Program-made: the position numbers and the translations under genes
Shown here: piece by piece, positions 45,183 through 46,465 of the stretch
Layout: the number at the start of each line of letters is the position of its first letter
Position numbering within the stretch: position 1 is the first letter of the stretch
NCBI GenBank assembly: GCA_900320515.1
Contig: ONSJ01000008.1
Coordinates: 1 to 64,000, forward strand
Source: an uncultured Methanobrevibacter sp.
GTDB taxonomy: Archaea > Methanobacteriota > Methanobacteria > Methanobacteriales > Methanobacteriaceae
DNA: 64,000 bases
Reading direction: 5' to 3'
Notes under the pieces: model-generated
What the model saw: only the letters and a program-made list of their open reading frames with translations
The model's database searches: none
Told to the model about the DNA's origin: nothing

Positions 45183-45866
45183 CTATTCTTTTAAGTATTC
45201 ATTAATGATGTCTTCGCCTCTAAGTAAAACCAGTCCGTTTTCTTCGGCGTATTTGCGGGCATCAGCCACTGATGTTGCCTGACCGGTTTCACCATCCATC
45301 ATTTCGCACACTACACAGACAGGAGTAACGCCTGCAAGCTCACATAATGCAAGACCTATTTCTGTATGTCCTTGCCTGTTTTTAACAAGTCCTTCTGCTC
45401 CTCTTAAAAGACATACGTGACCAGGAGACCTGAATGTTGCACCGAACTCATCAAATCTTTCTTCTTTCATCATTATGGCCATTTCAGATATTGTCATTGC
45501 TCTGTCATGGTCTGTTACGCCTGTGAAAGATTTTCTGTGGTTTGCCCAAACTGAAAATGATGATCTTTCATCGTATGGAATGTCTGTTGGTGCAAGTTTT
45601 GCAAGTTCCGGATATTTTTCAGTTGCGGCTTTCATGATGTCCACCATAAACGGCAAATGAATCGCATCACAGAAATCATCGTGAAGGCAATTGCAGATTA
45701 AACCGCCTGCGTCATTTCTCATTGTTGCAATTGATTTGGGGGTTACGAATTCGGAAGCGATGATCATGTCGACTTCCCCTTCCCTGTCGTCATCGTCAAA
45801 AACAAGTACAAATTGACCATTTCTTATAGCTTCTAAAGCTTTATCTAAATCTGTTTCTTGATTCAT
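45183..45866 (-). CDS. ribB: 3,4-dihydroxy-2-butanone 4-phosphate synthase
   Basis: RibB makes the four-carbon unit of riboflavin from ribulose 5-phosphate. The 227-residue protein has the acidic loop DDDREGEVDMIIASEF, RNDAGGLICN, and the His region GHVCLLRGAEGLVKNRQGHT ending in HTEIGLALCELAG. AAGGAGAT precedes the ATG by 5-8 bases. An FMN riboswitch lies in its leader (45923-46048), so it is most likely switched off by FMN. ribK lies just upstream on the same strand. Confidence 0.96.
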   Translation of the reverse strand: MNQETDLDKALEAIRNGQFVLVFDDDDREGEVDMIIASEFVTPKSIATMRNDAGGLICNCLHDDFCDAIHLPFMVDIMKAATEKYPELAKLAPTDIPYDERSSFSVWANHRKSFTGVTDHDRAMTISEMAIMMKEERFDEFGATFRSPGHVCLLRGAEGLVKNRQGHTEIGLALCELAGVTPVCVVCEMMDGETGQATSVADARKYAEENGLVLLRGEDIINEYLKE

Positions 45867-45922
45867 AGTAATATCTCCTTATATACTAGAACCAGGGCTA
45901 AAAATAACTAAATAACTATTAT

Positions 45923-46048
45923 CTTCTCTTCCATCCGGACTATCACCGTCGGTTTTGGAATCTCACCAAATCAACACGTTTTTTGTGCTCGTGGACTTAT
46001 TTTATCAAAATCACCACCGGTGGGGAATTGCACCCCGCCCCGAGAACG
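45923..46048 (-). ncRNA. FMN riboswitch (RFN element) in the ribB leader
   Basis: The minus strand shows the RFN element in order: GGGGCGGGGTGCAATTCCCC then ACCGGTGGT, AGTCCACGAGC, GATTTGGTGAGATTCCAAAA, CCGACGGTGATAGTC and GGATGGAAGAGAA. These are the strongly conserved blocks of the six-helix FMN aptamer. It ends about 55 bases before the ribB ATG; the ribosome binding site AAGGAGAT lies within AGTATAT...ATATTACT, a possible weak hairpin, so control of translation is likely. FMN riboswitches are overwhelmingly bacterial; transfer into this archaeal lineage is inferred. Confidence 0.93.
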
Positions 46049-46054
46049 TATTAA

Positions 46055-46082
46055 AAAATATATTCATCATGTATAAAATACT
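46055..46082 (-). promoter_or_regulatory. Promoter of the riboswitch-ribB transcript
   Basis: Minus-strand TATA candidates TTTTATACAT (about 46071-46080) and GAATATATTTT (about 46055-46065) lie between the ribK stop and the aptamer. The former would start transcription near 46048-46050, at the aptamer edge. This implies ribB has its own promoter besides any read-through from ribK. Confidence 0.45.
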
Positions 46083-46090
46083 TTATGGTA

Positions 46091-46465
46091 TCAAAATTCC
46101 AAAGTTACAATGTCGCCGTCTTCAAGGCCCAGCTCATCCCTCAATCGGACTTCGGCGATGAACTCAAGATAGTTCATGTCATGAACCGTTTTGGCCGGAA
46201 AGACTATTGCCCCTTTAACTTCATCGTTTAATACGGCTTCAATGTATTTAACGGCCCCGAATCCTTCACCCGGCTTGATTATGTTTTGACAGTTATCCTT
46301 GATTTCATTGATTTCATCAAGATACTCGTCGCTGACAACAACATTCAATGTTCCGGGATATGGAACGAAACCCAGATTTTTCCTGAACTCGTTTGAGTAG
46401 AATTCCTGTGATATGAAAAATGCGCCCTTTCCCAAACCGGCCTTAACTTCACCATCGATTTTCAT
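46091..46465 (-). CDS. ribK: CTP-dependent riboflavin kinase
   Basis: A 124-residue archaeal riboflavin kinase that uses CTP to make FMN. The cradle-loop barrel pattern is visible: GEVKAGLGKGAFFISQEFY with the nucleotide loop, FVPYPGTLNVVVSDEY, and C-terminal IAEVRLRDELGLEDGDIVTL. Length matches MJ0056-type enzymes (about 130). It lies just upstream of the FMN riboswitch and ribB on the same strand, so FMN synthesis and FMN sensing are placed together. The kinase itself is not downstream of the switch. Confidence 0.93.
   Translation of the reverse strand: MKIDGEVKAGLGKGAFFISQEFYSNEFRKNLGFVPYPGTLNVVVSDEYLDEINEIKDNCQNIIKPGEGFGAVKYIEAVLNDEVKGAIVFPAKTVHDMNYLEFIAEVRLRDELGLEDGDIVTLEF

Follow-up and report, generated by a model that had tools for sequence, protein, structure and literature searches.

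A proteobacterial-type FMN riboswitch on an archaeal ribB gene in Methanobrevibacter: likely import with a bacterial gene and graft onto the native one

The window analysed here, a stretch of 64,000 nucleotides of DNA from an uncultured Methanobrevibacter sp. (contig ONSJ01000008.1), carries, judged by its sequence, an FMN riboswitch in front of an archaeal-type ribB. With a probability of roughly three in four, we assume that the riboswitch entered the Methanobacteriaceae as part of a bacterial ribB cassette, that its leader was later grafted onto the native archaeal ribB, and that it represses this gene there in response to FMN. The homology of the aptamer, the conservation of leader and start codons, the two RibB lineages, the pairing potential and the covariation are direct observations. 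The graft as a historical event, and its order, are held as likely in view of the AT-rich composition of the archaeal leaders and an ambiguous AU test.

The aptamer, its neighbours and its distribution

The cmscan search matched the Rfam FMN model (RF00050) at positions 46051–45919 of the minus strand with 115.6 bits (gathering threshold 66.2) and an E-value of 3e-26, and the match covers all model positions (1–138). It is the sole Rfam match above gathering within the window, and the genome has a single copy of the riboswitch. The earlier note, which had described a complete RFN aptamer between ribK and ribB and proposed a search with this model, is thus borne out by a full-length match; its span of 45867–46048 takes in nearly the whole aptamer and the linker to the ATG, but misses the first 3 nt (46049–46051). 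The six stems of the RFN element and its conserved core are present, and just two pairs of P1 are non-standard. This helix, which spans 45924..46046 (minus strand), joins UUCUC (46046-46042) to GAGAA (45928-45924), as seen in both the Rfam match and a fold with P1 forced (−43.9 kcal/mol).

Both flanking genes, on the minus strand, are as the earlier note described them. The start codon of ribB (45866) lies 52 nt downstream of the aptamer, which places the element as the leader of a riboflavin synthesis gene; the putatively controlled gene (45183..45866) encodes an archaeal-type 3,4-dihydroxy-2-butanone-4-phosphate synthase of 227 aa, assigned by TIGR00506. The gene ribK (46091..46465), a native neighbour of archaeal ribB, ends 39 nt upstream of the aptamer and encodes a standalone CTP-dependent riboflavin kinase of 124 aa without the N-terminal winged-helix domain. 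A simple exchange of the regulator RbkR for a riboswitch was considered and rejected, because ribK is standalone across the family whether or not a switch is present; the family ribK open frames are about 125–160 aa long, with few longer or shorter. In one genome (G003), ribK and ribB lie in a single 356-aa open frame with no intervening stop, possibly a natural ribK-ribB fusion.

The FMN switch was matched in 94 of 139 genomes of the Methanobacteriaceae, 93 of them above the cut-off, and widening the search to order and phylum level (152 genomes in all) gave no riboswitch beyond the family. Its apparent absence from G069 and G072 was rejected as a true loss, being an artefact of contig ends. 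The horizontal gain proposed earlier therefore stands as far as a bacterial origin is concerned, but not as an isolated event, since the element is family-wide. The element of the window would be listed by any Rfam annotation. Moreover, G042, G019 and G123 are probably M. smithii ATCC 35061, M. ruminantium M1 and M. stadtmanae DSM 3091, and the Infernal user guide reportedly prints an FMN match in M. ruminantium at the coordinates found in G019; if so, that such an element occurs here is in itself no novelty.

Two genomes stand apart. In G077 the aptamer has a large internal deletion that leaves 53 nt, with linker and ribB intact, which may be a relic or an assembly error. The riboswitch and RibB of G001, assigned to genus g2, fall with those of g1, the genus of the window; its RibB is 91% identical to that of the window and its ribK just 48%, and since the contig is only 3.6 kb long, contamination or recent transfer is suspected.

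Expression platform, promoter and U-tract

Computed folds of the leader give two mutually exclusive structures (all positions on the minus strand). The fold of lowest energy without ligand (−48.4 kcal/mol) has CGGGGC at the 5' end of the aptamer (46037..46042) paired, as the left arm of an anti-sequestor, with GCCCUG in the linker (45893..45898), its right arm; one base is common to P1 and this anti-sequestor. In the P1-forced fold the linker pairs instead with the start-codon region. The left arm of this sequestor, UGGUUCUAGUA (45884..45894), overlaps GCCCUG by two bases, the right arm, UACUAUGAAUCA (45859..45870), holds the ribB start codon (45866-45864), the duplex between linker and start region has −10.0 kcal/mol, and the Shine-Dalgarno sequence AAGGAG (45875..45880) lies in the hairpin loop. 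The gap of 4.5 kcal/mol between the two folds is of a size that FMN binding could bridge. In the proposed mechanism, the FMN-bound aptamer would close P1 and leave the linker GCCCUGGUUCUAGUA available for pairing with UACUAUGAAUC around the start codon; the resulting hairpin would bury the start codon in its stem, hold the Shine-Dalgarno sequence in the loop and so block translation. Without FMN, GCCCUG would pair with CGGGGC, the start-codon hairpin would be broken and ribosomes could enter. High FMN would thus lower ribB expression; ligand binding and this direction of control, suggested by the folds, share the joint probability given above for import and graft.

The thermodynamic evidence differs between genera. 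Over 38 leaders of g1, the median cost of opening the start region is 8.8 kcal/mol in the P1 state vs 4.2 in the other, and the P1 state is the costlier, by about 4 kcal/mol, in all 38 with 13 or 24 coding nucleotides and in 34 with 36. The difference is weak in g9, where it appears in 6–7 of 15 leaders. In the window, the per-base accessibility of the AUG is alike in the two states (0.34 ON, 0.35 OFF) and the P1 state leaves the Shine-Dalgarno sequence more accessible, so that just the opening cost of the whole start region separates them. Given the equal AUG accessibility and the weak effect in g9, control of translation is what we infer from these folds. Furthermore, 105 of 20000 mononucleotide shuffles were as low in energy as the sequestor of the window, a weak separation, and the case for the sequestor is therefore carried by conservation and covariation. 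Among the ribB leaders compared, nearly all archaeal ones and most of the bacterial ones have the motif GCCCUG(A/G)UUC between aptamer and start, and likewise the start AUGAAUCA. The start-codon stem of g1, g9 and one g6 genome reads UAGUA/UACUA instead of the bacterial UGGUA/UACCA, and the two changes compensate each other. That the element is a decayed or non-functional relic is highly improbable: G096 of g1 has lost its switch and the copy in G077 is cut down to 53 nt, but the aptamer is complete, its core conserved and the complementarity of the platform kept in nearly all genomes.

The hairpin that the earlier note drew around the ribosome binding site (AGTATAT/ATATTACT) is real and lies within a more extended hairpin, UGGUUCUAGUAUAU–AAGGAG–AUAUUACUAUGAAUCA, that includes the start codon. 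The note had also suggested translational control adapted to archaeal signals; the platform does look translational, but its layout appears inherited from the proteobacterial ribB leader. As in that leader type, GCCCUG is complementary to the 5' end of the aptamer and the sequestor includes the AUGAAUC start. A hairpin with the start codon in its stem and the Shine-Dalgarno sequence in its loop is, on this comparison of leaders, not an archaeal invention; what archaea added is the putative promoter and, probably, a U-tract. Some archaeal leaders depart from the layout. In the M. smithii-like genomes G042 and G037, MSKND replaces the MNQE start, AAUC and most of the sequestor duplex are lost and the start-codon hairpin is weaker, so control may differ there; in two g6 leaders and that of G101, a local hairpin (e.g. 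GTTCTATTAAATAGAAC in G101) replaces the start-codon stem or stands next to it.

The putative archaeal promoter element AAAGTATTTTATA (46072..46084, minus strand), which is BRE/TATA-like, lies 33-34 nt upstream of the first base of the aptamer, a spacing at which transcription would begin about the aptamer 5' end. Among the leaders listed, most of g9 and many of g1 have a box AAAGTATTTTA at the same spacing.

The U-tract, UUUUU (45900..45904, minus strand), stands just upstream of GCCCUG and is a possible archaeal transcription terminator. At least five T directly precede GCCCUG in 77 of 84 archaeal leaders vs 2 of 61 bacterial ones, and the genus means of the T-run are 5.0–8.0 in archaea vs 2.6–4.0 in shuffled linkers. 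Archaea are not known to have Rho. The U-tract may therefore be an archaeal substitute for Rho-dependent termination, by which E. coli ribB is controlled in response to FMN (PMC10085680). On this alternative, the switch would work also or mainly at the level of transcription, the archaeal RNA polymerase stopping at the U-tract when FMN is bound. The counts in archaeal and bacterial leaders and the precedent of E. coli argue for it, as does the 8-T run in the leader of G137, which seems to have been acquired separately; the run in the window has just five bases, however, and T-runs are common in AT-rich genomes (mean 3.9 in shuffled g1 linkers). We regard termination as a tentative and less probable proposal. 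A fuller scheme is slightly more doubtful still: the switch would have been imported with its gene and captured by the native gene together with the start codons, since the start codon belongs to the switch, and an archaeal promoter and U-tract would have been added, giving an FMN switch at the two levels of transcription and translation.

Two RibB lineages and the history of the leader

When the RibB of the window was searched over the family, two classes of gene were found behind the switch. In g1 this gene is 73–100% identical to the window RibB; in g6, g9, g12 and g16 it encodes about 215 aa with 33–39% identity to it where the two align in one piece. Against PRK05773 the RibB of the window reaches 185 bits and that of g9 just 74; against TIGR00506 the former reaches 256. 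In the protein tree, the g1 RibBs nest among the switch-less native RibBs of methanogens as sister to g3 (96*), in agreement with the archaeal look that had been ascribed to ribB. The bacterial-type archaeal RibBs are 61–75% identical to those of Desulfuromonas, Geobacter, Shewanella, Photobacterium, relatives of Desulfovibrio, and Sporomusa; those of g6, g9 and g12 form one clade (99/97) nested among bacterial RibBs, with Desulfuromonas sp. BM522 as its sister (98/93). The proteobacterial leader type thus precedes a bacterial-type RibB in g6, g9 and g12, but not in the window. Three g12 genomes (G108–G110) have both RibB types, with the switch on the bacterial gene only.

G137 has a second, separate riboswitch-ribB cassette, located next to an RNase III gene on a contig of 257 kb; its RibB starts with MNQNLLAQFG, as in E. 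coli. Its RibB lies outside the bacterial-type archaeal clade in the protein tree, and a search of the genome for native ribB and ribK found neither; it may represent a separate transfer or a contaminated contig.

The tree built on the aptamer alone unites all aptamers of g1, g2, g6, g9 and g12 in one clade (100/99), g1 being nearest to g9, and that of G137 is the sole archaeal aptamer outside it. The closest aptamer to that of the window is 87% identical among archaea other than g1 and g2, and 80% among bacteria. Such a tree has few columns, and the archaeal aptamers are AT-rich. Once AT-rich bacterial aptamers (Fusobacterium, Acinetobacter, taken from plasmid records) are added, the archaeal clade has a lower support, 55/0 in the aptamer tree and 88/89 when the platform is included; with RY coding, 22 of the 23 archaeal rows still cluster (SH-aLRT 98.8, bootstrap 50). 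The AU test does not discriminate between a placement of g1 within g6+g9+g12 and one as their sister (p 0.18 and 0.56). The comparison of aptamer and ribB phylogenies that the earlier note had proposed thus gives grouped archaeal aptamers and two RibB lineages: the archaeal ribB held good for g1, but it is a whole bacterial cassette that appears to have moved.

We therefore also weighed an independent origin of the g1 leader, in which it came from a bacterium, either bare or with a bacterial ribB that was immediately lost, and no archaeal cassette was its source. The AU test leaves g1 separable from g6+g9+g12, and composition bias can pull AT-rich rows together. This origin is unlikely, though, given the clade of 100/99 obtained without the AT-rich controls and four features common to the type-B archaea (all four in g9) and not to the sampled bacteria, namely GAA at codon 4, UAGUA/UACUA, the U-tract and the promoter box. 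The fourth codon is GAA (ATGAATCAN-GAA) in 48 of 50 type-A and 28 of 29 type-B (g6, g9, g12) archaeal genes with this start, and in none of the sampled bacterial ribB genes with the ATGAATCA start.

The first codons of the window ribB, ATG AAT CAA GAA ACA (MNQET; 45852..45866, minus strand), would be part of the grafted leader and are missing in the RibBs of switch-less relatives, which start directly with M[IL]xKAL and have no MNQE. In g3, which has the nearest native RibBs, the gap between ribK and ribB is about 21 nt, with no trace of a leader. In contrast, G096 of g1 has lost the aptamer and kept AAGGAGATATTACTATGAATCAAGAC, the grafted Shine-Dalgarno and start region; it also keeps a scrap resembling part of an aptamer (TTTGGTGAAATTTCAAAC). 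An ancestral switch, lost in the switch-less genera, behind which only a bacterial ribB was imported, could appeal to such losses, but the plain native starts, the g3 gap lacking the trace seen in G096, and the native ribB of G108-G110, switch-less beside an imported ribB with its switch, make it very unlikely. Besides, the leader type belongs to bacterial ribB, the AUGAAUC start being found in most bacterial relatives. Riboswitch and bacterial ribB, then, were probably transferred as a whole cassette into the Methanobacteriaceae and kept in g6, g9 and part of g12. In g1 the native ribB beside ribK would have received the imported gene's promoter and leader together with its first codons, and the body of the bacterial gene would have been lost.

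Comparison with known systems

Taken together, a known riboswitch family is widespread in an archaeal lineage, where its probable transplantation makes for an unusual and apparently undescribed history. Archaeal riboswitches have been reported as a few bioinformatic candidates only (PMC11549558). Fluoride (crcB) and preQ1 candidates of the Thermococcales have been predicted without in vivo proof (PMC4247193), and proof of regulation in vivo by a natural archaeal riboswitch is absent from reports to 2014 and 2024 (PMC4247193; PMC11549558). In the part of the literature that was covered we found no description of an FMN switch in Methanobacteriales, and an earlier one is possible. With riboswitches seldom reported in archaea, this family-wide case offers a bacterial donor type, culturable gut species and genomes in each state: some with just the bacterial gene, some with both, some with the switch on the native gene, and one whose native gene no longer has it. 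The passage of a regulatory RNA from one domain to another, and from one gene to an unrelated one, thereby becomes open to experiment, as does the question whether a bacterial switch functions in the archaeal context of transcription and translation. A further prediction is that ligands of FMN riboswitches such as roseoflavin or ribocil may act on gut methanogens.

The closest known system is the proteobacterial ribB FMN riboswitch (E. coli, Vibrio, Shewanella, Desulfuromonadales), which shares with the window the RF00050 aptamer, the GCCCUGAUUCUGG linker, AGGAG, the AUGAAUCA start, the GAUUC...GAAUC start-codon hairpin and the target enzyme, DHBP synthase. The window differs in its archaeal RibB, its putative archaeal promoter, UAGUA/UACUA in place of UGGUA/UACCA, GAA at codon 4 and the U-tract before GCCCUG, and the Rho-dependent part of the proteobacterial system is inapplicable because archaea, as far as we know, lack Rho. 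The cassettes of g9 (Methanobrevibacter sensu stricto, e.g. G019) and g12 (Methanosphaera) resemble the window in aptamer, linker, stem, Shine-Dalgarno sequence and start codons, and in g9 also in the promoter box, but they stand at another locus before a bacterial RibB (33-39% identical), and the linker is longer in g9 (66-151 nt vs 8-22 in g1). The Thermococcales crcB and preQ1 candidates are likewise leader RNAs of archaea for which sensing of small molecules has been predicted (PMC4247193); their ligands and genes are others, whereas for the element of the window the type of bacterial donor can be traced and the platform looks like that of a switch.
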